Assembly (NCBI RefSeq): GCF_014904745.1
Contig: NZ_JACZCS010000004.1
Location: forward strand, 1-64,000
Reading direction: 5' to 3'
From: Oricola nitratireducens
GTDB lineage: Bacteria > Pseudomonadota > Alphaproteobacteria > Rhizobiales > Rhizobiaceae
DNA length: 64,000 bases
The notes beneath the pieces were generated by a model that was not told the DNA's origin, ran no database searches, and saw nothing but the letters and a program-made list of their open reading frames with translations. The stretch's first letter is position 1; every line of letters starts with the position of its first letter. Below are positions 33,453 to 41,053 of this stretch, in pieces. A program made the position numbers and the translations under genes.

Positions 33453-34034
33453 TCAGGCAGCTTCTTCCTGCGCGTCCGTTTCGGCCTCGTCGTTCTCGGC
33501 CTTGGCGCCGCGTTTCGGACCCTTGTTGAGATTGCTCTCGATCAGGCGAACGGCTTCCGTGTCGGAGATCTTGTTCACGGCCGCGATCTCGCGGGCCATG
33601 CGGTCGAGGGCCGCTTCATAGAGCTGGCGTTCCGAATAGGACTGTTCCGGCTGGTTTTCCGCGCGATAGAGGTCACGCACGACCTCGGCGATGGAAATCA
33701 GGTCACCGGAGTTGATCTTGGCATCGTATTCCTGAGCACGGCGCGACCACATGGTGCGCTTGATGCGTGCGCGGCCCTGAAGGATCTTCAGCGCGCGTTC
33801 AACGAAACCCGGCTCGGACAGCTTGCGCATGCCGATGGAGATGGCTTTCGCCACCGGAACCTTCAGGCGCATCTTGTCCTTCTGGAACTCGACCACGAAC
33901 AGTTCGAGCTTGTGGCCCGCAACTTCCTGTTCCTCGATCGTCGCAATCTGGCCAACACCATGGGCCGGATACACGATGAACTCGTTGGTCTTGAATCCCT
34001 GCCGTTGAGACGTTTTCTTAGAGGCAGCCGCCAT
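33453..34034 (-). CDS. carD: CarD family transcriptional regulator
   Basis: CarD/CdnL proteins bind the RNA polymerase beta subunit and stabilise open complexes, notably at rRNA promoters. The N-terminal RNA-polymerase-interacting domain is visible (FKTNEFIVYPAHGVGQIATIEEQEVAGHKLELFVVEF, residues 14-50), followed by the helical DNA-binding part with a tryptophan in RTMWSRRAQEYDAKI. The C-terminus is acidic. I start at ATG 34034, which has a GGGAG at good spacing, giving 193 residues. Its leader contains large inverted repeats. Confidence 0.93.
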   Translation of the reverse strand: MAAASKKTSQRQGFKTNEFIVYPAHGVGQIATIEEQEVAGHKLELFVVEFQKDKMRLKVPVAKAISIGMRKLSEPGFVERALKILQGRARIKRTMWSRRAQEYDAKINSGDLISIAEVVRDLYRAENQPEQSYSERQLYEAALDRMAREIAAVNKISDTEAVRLIESNLNKGPKRGAKAENDEAETDAQEEAA

Positions 34035-34229
34035 ACTTTGCTTACTCCCTGTCTGGGTGCCCGCCGGCCGATTCCGGATCGGGGACCAGAGCCTGTTGTC
34101 CGCCATTCCACACACACGCGATCAACGCTCCCGGGAGCCGGAATGAGGTCAAGAAGACCTGCCCGTTTAACTACCGGTTACGTTGCGTTCCTTCATAGAG
34201 GGAGCGTCAAACAGCTCAAAAGCGTGACG

Positions 34230-34258
34230 TGTGATGACATTTTTATATGTCTATCACA
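34230..34258 (-). repeat. Inverted repeat in the carD leader region
   Basis: TGTGAT-GACAT is matched by ATGTC-T-ATCACA, giving 11 paired bases with a single bulge around a 6-nt A/T loop. It could be an RNA hairpin or a DNA-binding site near the carD promoter. The half-sites look like CRP half-sites but the spacing is wrong for CRP. Confidence 0.55.
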
Positions 34259-34289
34259 AAAAACGGCGTTTTTCAATGCGTTGCACAAA

Positions 34290-34349
34290 ATACAGGCCTC
34301 CGTGGCGTCCGCGACGCCAAGCCTGCTGAAAGTAATATGGGGCCTGTAT
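34290..34349 (-). repeat. 60-bp nested inverted repeat between fdxA and carD
   Basis: A perfect 9-bp outer stem (ATACAGGCC 34290-34298 with GGCCTGTAT 34341-34349) encloses a perfect 7-bp inner hairpin (TGGCGTC 34303-34309 with GACGCCA 34313-34319). On the minus strand the outer stem is followed by TTTTG, so it may be the fdxA terminator. The two-stem layout could also be a structured leader or a small RNA. Confidence 0.6.
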
Positions 34350-34389
34350 CCGGGAATTCAAGCGGAAGTGGGGCGAGGCGGTCTGCCGG

Positions 34390-34734
34390 CTAGTCGCCCT
34401 GGCCGGGTTCGGGCGAGAAGAATTTCTCGTATTTTCCTTCCACACCGTCCATTTCCTTGGCATCGGACGGCGGATCACGCTTGATCGTGATGTTCGGCCA
34501 CTTGTCGGCATATTCCGTGTTGATCTGCAGGAAATGCTCCAGCCCCGGTTCGGTGTCGGGGCGGATGGCGTCGGCCGGGCATTCCGGCTCGCAGACGCCG
34601 CAATCGATGCACTCGTCGGGATGGATGACAAGCATGTTTTCGCCTTCGTAGAAGCAGTCCACGGGGCAGACTTCCACGCAATCCATGTATTTGCAGCGAA
34701 TGCAGTTATCGGTGACGATATAGGTCACGGGCAT
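34390..34734 (-). CDS. fdxA: Seven-iron ferredoxin FdxA
   Basis: FdxA is a small electron carrier with one [3Fe-4S] and one [4Fe-4S] cluster. The 114-residue protein shows cysteines at 11, 14, 19, 23 and 27 in the first cluster region and the 42-45-48-52 CxxCxxCxxxCP motif in the second. The long C-terminal tail after residue 60 ([18 protein letters not shown]) is typical of FdxA. I start at ATG 34734, which gives the usual [13 protein letters not shown]-terminus. Confidence 0.96.
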
Positions 34735-34880
34735 GCTCCAGCGTAAGCGATGACCGGCCGGCTGGCGGCCGCGAGGTCCGGTGCGGATGGGTAACGGCTT
34801 TGCCGGACGCGTGCAAGTGGGCAAAAACGCGCGCGAGGGAAAGGATTTGGCGTCAATCGCGCCATGATTGGAATTCCTGC

Positions 34881-36212
34881 CTAATTGCCGCCGATCGCCT
34901 GGCGGAAAGCCTCGAAAGAGGCCTTGGGTGTGCGCTTCTGGGTCTCATAATCGACATGAACCATGCCGAAGCGCTTGCCGTAGCCGAACGACCATTCGTA
35001 ATTGTCGAGCAATGACCAGCCGAAATAGCCCCTGACCGGCGCGCCGTCGGCGATGGCGCGGCGAACGGCGGCCAGATGCGTGTCGAAATAGGCGATCCGC
35101 TCGGCATCGTCGACTCGGCCGCCTTCGACGCGGTCGTCCCATGCCATGCCGTTCTCGGTGACGATGATCGGCGTGTCACTGGTGTAGTCGCGGTGAAGCC
35201 GCGTCAGGAAGCCGTGCAGGCCGTCCGGGTAGATCTCCCAGCCCATGTCGGTTTTGGGCAGCGGGCCGCGCACGGATTTGAGCGACGGCCAGGCGCTCGC
35301 CGGATCATGGGCGACGTTGGTGCGGGTGTAGTAATTGACACCAAGCCAGTCGATCGGGGCGCCAATCGCCTGCAGATCGTCCTGGTAGCCCTGCGGCATA
35401 TGGTCACCAAACGCCTCCAGGATCTCCTGCGGATACGACTTTCGCGTCAGCGCCTCGATGAACCAGCGATTGTAGAAGCCGTCATAGCGTTTCGCCGCGG
35501 CGACGTCTTCCGGCCGGTCGCTGGCCGGATTGGCGTGCTCGAAATTGAGGACGATGCCGAGGTTGGAATGACCCGCCGCGCGCATCGCCTCGAGCGCGCG
35601 GGCATGGGCCAGCAGGACGTGATGCATCGACCGCGCCGCGGCGCGGATGTCGCGCAGGCCGGGCGCGTGGATGCCCCAGAAATGGCTGAGCCAGGAAACG
35701 CACCACGGCTCGTTAATCGTCGCGGTCGCCGCCATGCGGTCGCCGATCCGCCGCATGACGATGCCGGCATAGTCGGCGAACCAGGAGGCAACGTCGCGGT
35801 TGCGCCAGCCGCCGAGGTCGGACAGCGCGGCGGGCAGGTCCCAATGATAGAGCGTCAGATAGGGCTTCAGGCCGCGTTCGAGGATCGCGTCGGCGAGCCG
35901 GTCGTAGAAATCGAGGCCCTCGGCATTGACGGATTTGCCGTCCGGCATAACCCGCGCCCAGGAGGTCGAGAAGCGGTAGGCGTCGAAACCGCCGGCGCGG
36001 ATCAGGTCGAGATCCTCGGCGTAACGGTGATAGTGGTCGCAGGCGATCGCGCCGGTTTCGGCGTTGACGACGTTTCCGGGCGTCGCGGCGAAGGTATCCC
36101 AGTGCGACGGGCCGGCGTCGCCGAAGGAGGATCCCTCGATCTGGTAGGCGGCGGTCGCCGCGCCGAACAGGAAGCCGTCGGGGAAATCCGTACGCCGGAA
36201 GGAAAAGCTCAT
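34881..36212 (-). CDS. GH1 family beta-glucosidase
   Basis: This 443-residue enzyme of glycoside hydrolase family 1 would hydrolyse beta-glucosides or related sugars (cellobiose, aryl-glucosides) in the cytoplasm, as no signal peptide is seen. The acid/base glutamate is E168 in TINEPW and the nucleophile is E353 in IVTENGMAW. The N-terminal [19 protein letters not shown] block is the family signature. It sits alone between fdxA and the S4 protein gene without a transporter, which is unusual for a GH1 gene. Confidence 0.94.
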
Positions 36213-36277
36213 CTGACCCGCCTCATGAAGCTGACTTTAACGTTGCAGTCGCCTTATCGCGGCCGAGGCGGCATGCG

Positions 36278-36664
36278 TCAATCGTCCTCGCCGGTCAATT
36301 TGTCGAGGGCGCGGCGTTCCTTCTTGGTGGGGCGGCCCGCGCCGGGCTCACGCTTGCCGGCCATCCGGTCGAGCGCGTTGTCGGCCTTCGGCAGTGGCGG
36401 CGGCGAGATGTCTTCGTAGAGCATGCGTGCTTCCGTCGCCGGTCCGCGGCGCGTGCCGCAGTCGACCACGCGATAGACGATGACCCGGCGCTCGAGCGTC
36501 ACGGTCAGGACGTCGCCCGGTTTGATCTCCTGGCTTGCCTGGGAAATCTTGTTGCCGTTGACGCGGACATGCCCGCCCTGGGCGAGTTTTGCGGCGAGCG
36601 TTCGAGATTTCGCCACGCGGGCGAAGAACAGCCACTTGTCGATGCGCTGCCTGTCAGCGCTCAT
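36278..36664 (-). CDS. S4-domain RNA-binding protein, Hsp15-like
   Basis: The 128-residue protein opens with an S4 RNA-binding fold (RIDKWLFFARVAKSRTLAAKLAQGGHVRVNGNKISQASQEIKPGDVLTV region, residues 6-55). That layout matches Hsp15/HslR, which binds 50S subunits carrying a stalled nascent chain. The C-terminus is basic (GKREPGAGRPTKKERRALDKL). It lies 12 bp downstream of the SUV3-like helicase gene on the same strand, so an RNA-related operon is likely. Confidence 0.88.
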   Translation of the reverse strand: MSADRQRIDKWLFFARVAKSRTLAAKLAQGGHVRVNGNKISQASQEIKPGDVLTVTLERRVIVYRVVDCGTRRGPATEARMLYEDISPPPLPKADNALDRMAGKREPGAGRPTKKERRALDKLTGEDD

Positions 36665-36676
36665 CCTGCCCCGGCA

Positions 36677-39772
<3,096 letters not shown>

Positions 39773-39929
39773 GATGTTCGAGTCCGGGGGATTCCGGCGC
39801 GGTATCGCCCGCGAAGGGGACCTTCATGGCTTTAACACGCCGATTCAGCAATTACAGGGTGCAAATTACGCGAAATTACGGGCTCTCCACCACTCCAGGG
39901 TTGTACAACTTAACAACCAGAACGAGTCT

Positions 39930-39952
39930 GGAACGAATCGGAGACGAATCGG
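39930..39952. repeat. Duplicated 23-bp block, copy 1
   Basis: This block begins GGAACGAATCGG and contains two GAATC sites. It matches copy 2 (40203-40225) at 21 of 23 positions. Upstream flanks are also alike (TTAAC...CAGAAC...), so the repeated unit may be about 44 bp. Confidence 0.75.
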
Positions 39953-40202
39953 AGACTCTCATAGGTTGCAGCTTTGTTCCCTACCAGATGTTGCGATTGG
40001 CATGGTCACTGCTACCAGTTCCTGAATCGCACAATTGCTATTGTGGAACAAAAGAACGGATTCCGTTAACCGGTTGGGTTCGGGCTGCTCGCCGGAATTG
40101 CCTCTCATGGTAACAGTTTGAATTCTCTCGATTATCTTCATGCTCTGTTAACCATGTCTGTTAGCGCTTCGGCAAGATTTCGTTAACGAACAGAACCGAG
40201 GC

Positions 40203-40225
40203 GGAACGAATCGGCGACGAATCAG
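40203..40225. repeat. Duplicated 23-bp block, copy 2
   Basis: The second copy of the block lies 273 bp after copy 1 in the same orientation and also begins GGAACGAATCGG. The variable positions are single bases in the spacer and near the end. Confidence 0.75.
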
Positions 40226-40339
40226 CTTTTCGACCTGTTTCCTGATTTGTTCTCACCACATGTAGCGCCTGCCGGGACGATTCAAGCACAACTTTAGCGA
40301 TTCATTGCGTAGGGGAATGTGCCGCAGGCACCGTCCACG

Positions 40340-41053
40340 TTAACCTTTGCCGCCGGATCCGGCGATGGCGGCGTCGATCAGCCGTAGCGCATCGGGGCTC
40401 GCCCACTCGGCCGGGCCGTTCATGTTGGCGATGACGCAATTTTGCGAATCGACCAGCACGGTGACCGGCAATCCGAAGGCGAGGCCTTCCTTTTTCATCG
40501 TGTTGAAGGCGCCGATTGTCGGGTCGTGAAAGAAGGAGAGGTTTTTTACGCCGATCTCGTTGAAGAACTTGCGCGGCTTTTCGTCCGATCCGCCGTCGAC
40601 GGATATCGCCACCACCTGGAAGTCGTCGCCGCCCTTTTCCGCCTGCAGCTTGTCGAGTGCTGGCATTTCCTCGCGGCAGGGCGCGCACCAGGATGCCCAG
40701 AGATTGACGAGGCGTGTCTTGCCGCCGGTATCGGCCAGTGTGAGCGGCTTGCCGTCGCCGTCATTGAAGGCAAGCGCGGAGAGGTTGTTTGCCTGGGTGC
40801 GGTTGGCCATGCCGGCGATCTCGCCGGTCAGCAACGGCTTCAGCTTTTCGCCCTCGGCGATGGCGGCCTTGCATTGTCCGCCCGAGGTGTCGCCGGCCAG
40901 CGAGCCGCCATTGCCAGAAAGCATGCCCGTGGCGTATACCCCGGCGGCGCCGGCGACGGCGCCGAGGCCAATCGCGATGGCCGCGATTTTTCCGATGGAC
41001 GGGCGGCTCCGCGCCGTCCTGGCGCTATTCGTTTCCGGGGTTTGTTCTTTCAT
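40340..41053 (-). CDS. tlpA: TlpA-like thiol:disulphide oxidoreductase
   Basis: TlpA is a membrane-anchored periplasmic thioredoxin-like reductant, in rhizobia needed for cytochrome aa3 oxidase assembly (copper-site reduction). The 237-residue protein has an N-terminal anchor (about residues 22-44) and a thioredoxin fold with the active site W122-C-A-P-C126. The family's extra cysteine near residue 61 and the late Asn-Cys pair (QNCVIAN) are also present. I use ATG 41053; an in-frame TTG at 41083 would add ten residues. Its ATG overlaps that of argH on the other strand. Confidence 0.9.

Follow-up and report, generated by a model that had tools for sequence, protein, structure and literature searches.

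A dense GANTC cluster upstream of a Suv3-like helicase gene consists of two copies of a conserved, 11-bp-phased module

Two module copies in one GANTC-rich spacer

What makes a single spacer so rich in GANTC, the CcrM methylation site, and what may such a cluster be for? In Alphaproteobacteria CcrM methylation times gene expression, but regulation of a gene cannot be read from the presence of a lone GANTC (PMC8725594). A preliminary description of the window, as we call the whole 64-kb stretch of DNA analysed here, had counted by eye 14 GANTC sites within about 540 bp of non-coding DNA and had suggested a methylation-sensitive control element, a replication or segregation site, or a small RNA locus. 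An exact count gave the same number: of the 118 sites in the window, 14 are located in 39762-40303 (542 bp), at positions 39762, 39780, 39790, 39842, 39924, 39935, 39946, 39954, 40024, 40059, 40208, 40219, 40279 and 40299. The region is also less GC-rich, as had been described (50.6% versus 64.6% in the window), and it contains three of the window's seven GTTAAC hexamers, which had been noticed as well. That the cluster is free of genes is true for 39773-40339; at its edge, however, the site at 39762 touches the start of a helicase gene, the ORF of which begins at 39772 or, if an inner ATG is the start, near 39761.

As background we used the window together with 20 pieces of 20 kb from the same genome, about a tenth of its 4.93 Mb. 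These 464 kb contain 808 GANTC (1.74 per kb, the cluster included), in agreement with the densities of 0.90-1.83 per kb, about twofold higher in intergenic DNA, given for 157 Ensifer genomes (PMC8725594). Beyond the cluster, the maximum per 542 bp in this sample is seven; non-overlapping 542-bp tiles (n = 835) have a mean of 0.92 sites and a maximum of six, and 5000 dinucleotide shuffles of the cluster region produced 3.05 ± 1.64 sites, with a maximum of 10 and none reaching 14. The earlier estimate of about two sites by chance falls between the tile mean and the shuffle mean, and no second cluster of this kind was seen in the window and 400 kb of the genome.

The dense cluster is real, and its source is two copies of one conserved module. 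This two-module make-up was absent from the preliminary description, as were its conservation and its position upstream of one gene. The features of the locus are as follows.

36677-39772, minus strand: Suv3-like DEXQ-box helicase gene (PF22527, E 6.5e-26; PF00271, E 1.6e-11)
39773-39907, no strand: stretch between module and helicase gene, with 52 of 135 columns invariant among congeners
39908-40028, plus strand: proximal module (copy 1), with TTAAC at 39910, GAAC at 39920 and 39931, GANTC at 39924, 39935, 39946 and 39954, TTTGTTC at 39973, CCAGATGTTG at 39984 and a terminal GAATC at 40024
40029-40180, no strand: inter-module spacer, with GTTAAC at 40065 and 40147 (GTTAACCATG), the rest poorly conserved
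40181-40305, plus strand: distal module (copy 2), with TTAAC at 40183, GAAC at 40193 and 40204, GANTC at 40208, 40219, 40279 and 40299, TTTGTTC at 40246 and CCACATGTAG at 40256
40340-41053, minus strand: TlpA/redoxin-like gene (PF08534, PF00578), the 3' end of which borders the spacer

The copies form a direct repeat, in the same direction and 273 bp apart, and agree by 78% over 41 nt. Copy 1 matches the module profile with an E-value of 4.4e-22, being itself among the sequences from which the profile was built, and copy 2 with 1.4e-13.

Module architecture, conservation and position

The module is a conserved, directional DNA element without RNA structure, built of GAAC and GANTC phased at 11 bp and often repeated. 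Over about 85 to 110 bp it consists of TTAAC, 11-bp-phased units (GAAC-N7-GAACGAATCGG-CGACGAATCG-TGACTC), GATTC, TTTGTTCAC and C.A.AT.T.G; the units recur at about one helical turn and, by inspection, out of register with codons. In the proximal consensus from 146 loci (first GAAC = 0), ttaac is found at -10 and GGAACgagtctgGAACGAAtCggcgaCGAATCgcTGACTC from -1 to 38, followed by gaTTC at 44, TTTGTTCaC at 53, C.A.aT.T.G at 64 and acca.atgctgaatc at about 93-108. The GANTC slots 4, 15, 26, 34, 44 and 104 are filled in 83, 106, 145, 113, 99 and 98, respectively, of the 146 proximal-type modules. In 114 further copies slot 15 is filled in 81 and slot 26 in 109, with slots 4, 34, 44 and 104 filled in 0, 12, 4 and 4; four of the six GANTC slots are mostly lost in these further (distal) copies, as is the first GAAC. 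In the window, copy 1 fills slots 4, 15, 26, 34 and 104, and copy 2 fills slots 15 and 26 and has two GANTC further on. The middle base is nearly fixed at each slot, so that a specific sequence is conserved, beyond methylatability alone; the most conserved block is CGAATC.

The module PWM was trained on 78 matches to GAAC-N7-GAAC-N11-GAATC in the helicase loci; conservation at slots 0, 11 and 26 is therefore partly by construction, since the training pattern demanded them. The spacer BLAST, the congener comparison and the congener counts of invariant columns are free of this bias. At the 146 module-bearing loci 997 GANTC are located inside modules versus 215 in shuffles (30.8 per kb, 4.6-fold); among the three earlier options, a conserved control element with an array of CcrM sites therefore has the best support. 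Between modules the excess is 1.5-fold (90 versus 59), and between the proximal module and the gene GANTC is depleted to 0.6 times the shuffle level (47 versus 77.2, over 20.0 kb in all).

Both copies, and with them the module core, are kept in all six congeneric genomes, upstream of the helicase gene and on the opposite strand; of the two outcomes named earlier as refuting, frequent clusters and sites without conservation, neither occurred in the samples analysed. Among these six, invariant columns make up 67 of 84 in the proximal core (39910-39993) and 54 of 84 in the distal core (40183-40266), 24 of 152 between the copies and one of the last 34 bp of the spacer. A motif-free BLAST with the spacer matched 21 of 61 genomes, the genome under study included; every locus fetched also encodes the helicase, and among these loci, with flanks of ~1.5 kb, the TlpA-like gene was found only in congeners. 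In the genome under study the module occurs at one locus only.

Of 121 genomes searched, 116 had a match to the helicase protein, and we compared the upstream regions of its gene in the six congeners and 80 other relatives, with 30 further ones left unfetched. In 63 of the 80 the module scores at least 30 bits there; a profile search recovered it in two of the 17 below (G022, G033), and the other 15 keep the helicase and have no module there by PWM or profile. Taking the 86 helicase regions together with 77 loci from a scan of the GTDB species collection (163 loci), we counted none, one, two, three, four and five copies at 17, 50, 82, 11, 2 and 1 loci, respectively. In that scan a 60-base pattern matched at least 119 stretches, with record titles that we take to be Hyphomicrobiales taxa, save three labelled only by class or phylum. 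At 77 of 80 loci fetched, those with a helicase start, all 79 strict matches are upstream of the helicase gene, on the opposite strand and 68-792 bp away; the remaining three loci carry it close to one end (about 155 bp or less), on the expected helicase side. The exact core pattern occurred in four of 190 class-wide genomes: our own, a further two from its order, and G124, the single case among the 187 genomes from other orders, a draw that under-counts because the exact pattern is strict. In the three genomes other than our own the module is again upstream of the helicase gene and on the opposite strand.

The module mostly stands 110-210 bp upstream of the helicase gene. In many relatives CTATAT-like boxes were seen by eye between the two, which from the -10 consensus we take to be the helicase promoter; in the window this promoter probably sits in 39773-39907. 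Neighbouring copies less than 320 bp apart (111 pairs) are most often spaced by 273 and 283 bp, with minor modes near 203, 223, 243, 253 and 262. The 10-bp periodicity of these spacings is suggestive: R is 0.595 at 10.0 bp over the 111 phylogenetically non-independent pairs and 0.19 with each distinct spacing counted once.

Judged by eye, the ORFs of 33453-39772 encode in a row the helicase, an S4-domain-like protein and glycosidase-like, ferredoxin-like and CarD-like proteins. The order helicase, S4, fdxA, CarD recurs in a Rhizobium plasmid record, where the module again precedes it. Rhizobium sp. NLR16a has the module (NZ_CP072868.1:294430-294518) and its helicase neighbourhood on what is labelled plasmid p3 (489 kb), close to rpmF.

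Candidate binding proteins and related systems

The GcrA motif is a GANTC in YGAKTCG-type context (PMC7987155). Such a context is present at slot 14 in 184 of 260 copies and at slot 25 in 254 of 260, the latter figure being partly by construction because GAATC at 26-30 was required in PWM training. Every one of the 32 genomes tested encodes GcrA, whether or not it has the module, so that GcrA does not discriminate. The GcrA/CcrM promoters of Caulobacter and Brevundimonas (PMC7987155) are similar to our locus in having GANTC in this context upstream of a gene and GcrA in the genome. They differ in that here up to six phased slots form a module of >80 bp, repeated at ~270 bp and located upstream of the likely promoter; roles of GcrA and of methylation at the module are putative. 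MucR-shielded hypomethylated sites (PMC5172544) are likewise GANTC in upstream DNA where a protein may block CcrM; MucR binding and hypomethylation at the module would be hypothetical. Several GANTC in promoter and intergenic DNA are present as well at repABC/ori2 of Agrobacterium tumefaciens, there tied to chromosome replication; unlike ori2, with three motifs in each of three repABC parts (PMC11514494), our locus has one iteron-like module and no replication gene recognised beside it.

The alphaproteobacterial LexA box is GTTC-N7-GTTC, and comM is reported as LexA-regulated in Caulobacter (PMC3323433). The GAAC half-site and the spacing of the module are identical to those of this box; the flanks, CGAATC, TTTGTTCAC and C.A.AT.T.G are foreign to it, and the first half is weak in distal copies. 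For CtrA, no TTAA-N7-TTAA was found in the region and no 11-bp-spaced pair among its five TTAA; TTAAC half sites recur, and the 86 spacers (60.2 kb) hold six full CtrA sites. ChvI was considered as a GAAC reader with an expected GTnnC-N6-GTnnC and was rejected, as the published Sinorhizobium meliloti motif is N-GCC-N8-GCC (PMC9731502).

No published description of the module was found in the literature searched. Searches with module sequence strings matched a single, unrelated paper on DNA computing. The word helicase is absent from the main text of the methylation papers searched, e.g. PMC7987155, PMC11514494, PMC5172544 and PMC8725594.

Proposed control of the helicase gene and the alternatives

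The reading that we prefer, and hold with belief and doubt in equal measure, is that the spacer is a multiprotein upstream control module of the Suv3-like helicase gene, built round CcrM sites. The module copies would regulate this gene and perhaps also its S4-domain neighbour. CcrM would methylate the GANTC units, leaving the array hemimethylated once the replication fork has passed; GcrA with sigma-70 RNA polymerase may bind the module, sharing the same helix face with a GAAC-reading protein (LexA or a protein with similar sites), and tandem copies may cooperate through looping. The output would be helicase transcription coupled to replication or to DNA damage. Two genomes that keep the module with no helicase match (G085 and G010) and the 15 of 80 relatives without the module run counter to a pure promoter role. 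In favour of the reading are the conserved core, the constant place of the module relative to the helicase gene, the YGAKTCG-type contexts together with GcrA, the LexA-like spacing of the GAAC pairs and the lack of RNA structure. It is weakened by the sub-cutoff LexA match of G085, by GcrA being equally common in module-free genomes, by the loss of the first GAAC and of four GANTC slots in most distal copies, and by the nearly fixed middle base of each slot. For the Suv3-like helicase, on the function of which the literature searched gave no account, the module would open a way into its regulation. With as many as six phased GANTC, repeated copies and a link to one gene, it could serve as a test bed for how full and hemi-methylation are read and for the protein that reads them. 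Of the earlier proposals the control element stands in part, and neither the origin or parS site nor the small RNA has found support.

It is possible, with doubt outweighing belief, that the module is an autonomous nucleoprotein site, its phased GANTC sensing hemimethylation for replication timing, segregation or chromosome organisation, with the helicase gene as usual neighbour and not client. SeqA-bound GATC clusters and datA of Escherichia coli follow a similar logic, in which methylation sites in helical phase are placed towards the origin. The module differs from them in methylase and motif, in the lack of a DnaA box in the window's spacer and in its link to one gene at nearly all loci seen. 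Autonomy is suggested by genomes with no helicase match (5 of 121); of the four profiled, G085 and G010 have the module and G011 and G073 do not. In G085 it scores 68.6 bits and precedes a pmbA-like gene by 117 bp, again on the opposite strand; G085 is the sole genome of its genus in the collection. G010 has two copies of 22.7 and 17.6 bits, below the 30-bit cut, with profile E-values of 2.6e-11 and 2.0e-10; they are separated by 10.8 kb, have opposite orientations, and neither of them faces a gene start. These are new loci: among 11 genes from the two genomes' sites, suhB alone matched anything in 166 helicase loci (2-8 kb), at one locus with 28.5% identity. Since both genomes are reduced and in many contigs, independence from the helicase is suggestive only.

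The single locus in our own genome and the copy spacings in steps of about 10 bp are also consistent with an autonomous site. So is the position of hemE, a marker of oriC from Caulobacter and Sinorhizobium: 51-809 kb separate it from the helicase locus in 11 of the 12 module-bearing genomes compared, and 2.3 Mb in the remaining one. For G062, in which two genes match hemE, these distances are 505 and 809 kb. The comparison also covered G031 and G027, both without the module, and shared synteny could account for the proximity. Against autonomy are the fixed orientation and distance to one gene, the absence of the module from 15 of 80 relatives and two of four helicase-less genomes, and the near disappearance of the 10-bp periodicity with each spacing counted once. 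The origin or parS site proposed earlier is not borne out. The window's spacer has no DnaA box within one mismatch, and GC skew stays positive throughout the window (16 bins of 4 kb), with no switch; parS-like sites (we take TGTTTCACGTGAAACA to be the parS motif) are missing, within three mismatches, from all 86 spacers of 700 bp. Over these 86 spacers DnaA boxes number five exact versus none in one shuffle, and 20 versus six with one mismatch.

An SOS operator, in which LexA boxes repress the helicase gene and GANTC is incidental, appears unlikely. GAAC-N7-GAAC, with LexA spacing, is present in both window copies and at slot 0 in 167 of 260 copies, GTTC-N7-GTTC is present at slot 45 in 19 of 260, and LexA-type boxes of the same spacing precede comM in 25 of 30 relatives, taken from the 58 that have comM. 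Still, the flanks score -1.3 at slot 0 (n = 167) and -8.2 at slot 45, i.e. between the comM boxes (9.3; 25, leave-one-out) and chance sites (-16.6; 11, from the own-genome sample). Distal copies have a degenerate first GAAC, CGAATC as the best conserved block is outside the LexA box, and the box mostly precedes the gene by 110-210 bp. Of 32 genomes tested, 30 have a LexA DNA-binding domain that passes the cut-off; the two others are G011, without the module and with no LexA match, and G085, which keeps the module with no clear LexA (20.8 bits, below the cut-off). A small RNA gene or structured 5' leader is very improbable. Deep conservation, tandem copies, CNANAT blocks, which in our view resemble a -10 element, and two sigma-70-like sites on the minus strand between the copies (40122-40160; 0.4 expected) speak for it. 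Against it, the consensus fold of the plus strand, from the best-scoring copy of each of 64 loci, reaches -0.83 kcal/mol with five pairs and no two-sided changes, no Rfam family matches up to E 5, the DNA between copies is poorly conserved, and terminators are at chance level (one found, 0.7 expected). About equally improbable is a repeat, or an element of mobile or phage origin, that has no function in the cell, which would explain the module at other loci in G010 and G085 and the 11-bp GAAC arrays in phage contigs. Against it, the module has one locus in our own genome, its position and core are conserved across the order, and a search of 50,697 phage records with a 141-base copy from one relative gave no match. 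Among 72,556 plasmid records that copy matched a single one.

The core pattern matched 49 viral contigs (a count without a control pattern), only six of them at 28 bits or more on the module PWM; many of the 49 matches are simple arrays or chance-like, and tblastn of the window's helicase, TlpA, ArgH and LysA against these contigs found nothing. Phages do carry 11-bp GAAC arrays (GAACAAACCGG, GAACAAAACGT, GAACGAATCAG), with the three-unit pattern in 32 contigs versus eight for a reversed control; we regard them as a lead only. In these 32 contigs, some of which are near-duplicates, five parS-like sites with up to two mismatches are located within 300 bp of arrays (20 kb) and none in the other 258 kb. 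Sf6-type small terminases account for three of 10 array-neighbouring proteins tested. One could speculate, at a level that we consider doubtful, that the module is a relocatable order-wide site in which helically phased CcrM sites form a hemimethylation-sensing platform, a counterpart in logic of SeqA/datA, read by a GAAC-binding protein that phages would also recruit via such arrays, some of them beside parS-like sites.

Several minor observations can be added. The viral contigs with a parS-like site beside the array, at zero or one mismatch, are L362, L366, L368, L375 and L380, and in L366, L368 and L375 a small-terminase gene adjoins the array. In the phage arrays at L370:5500-5780, L387:560-830 and L377:2600-2820, GGTTTGTTC / GAACAAACCGG units are inverted around a short spacer, which in L370 and L387 holds a TATATATATATA run, an origin-like layout. 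Weak profile matches in G028 and G070 were rejected as displaced modules, since they consist of the first half only, ~90 bp upstream of comM-like genes. CGATTCG units like those of the module lengthen the LexA-type box of these comM-like promoters (L135:2990 and L136:2761), an extension missing from most of the comM boxes inspected in other relatives. In G010, L132:9562-13682 carries regularly repeated units, CRISPR-like as judged from repeating ORF translations, and after them a 577-aa ORF that contains an RNxxxH (HEPN-like) motif, matches no Pfam family and adjoins an Abi_2 gene.
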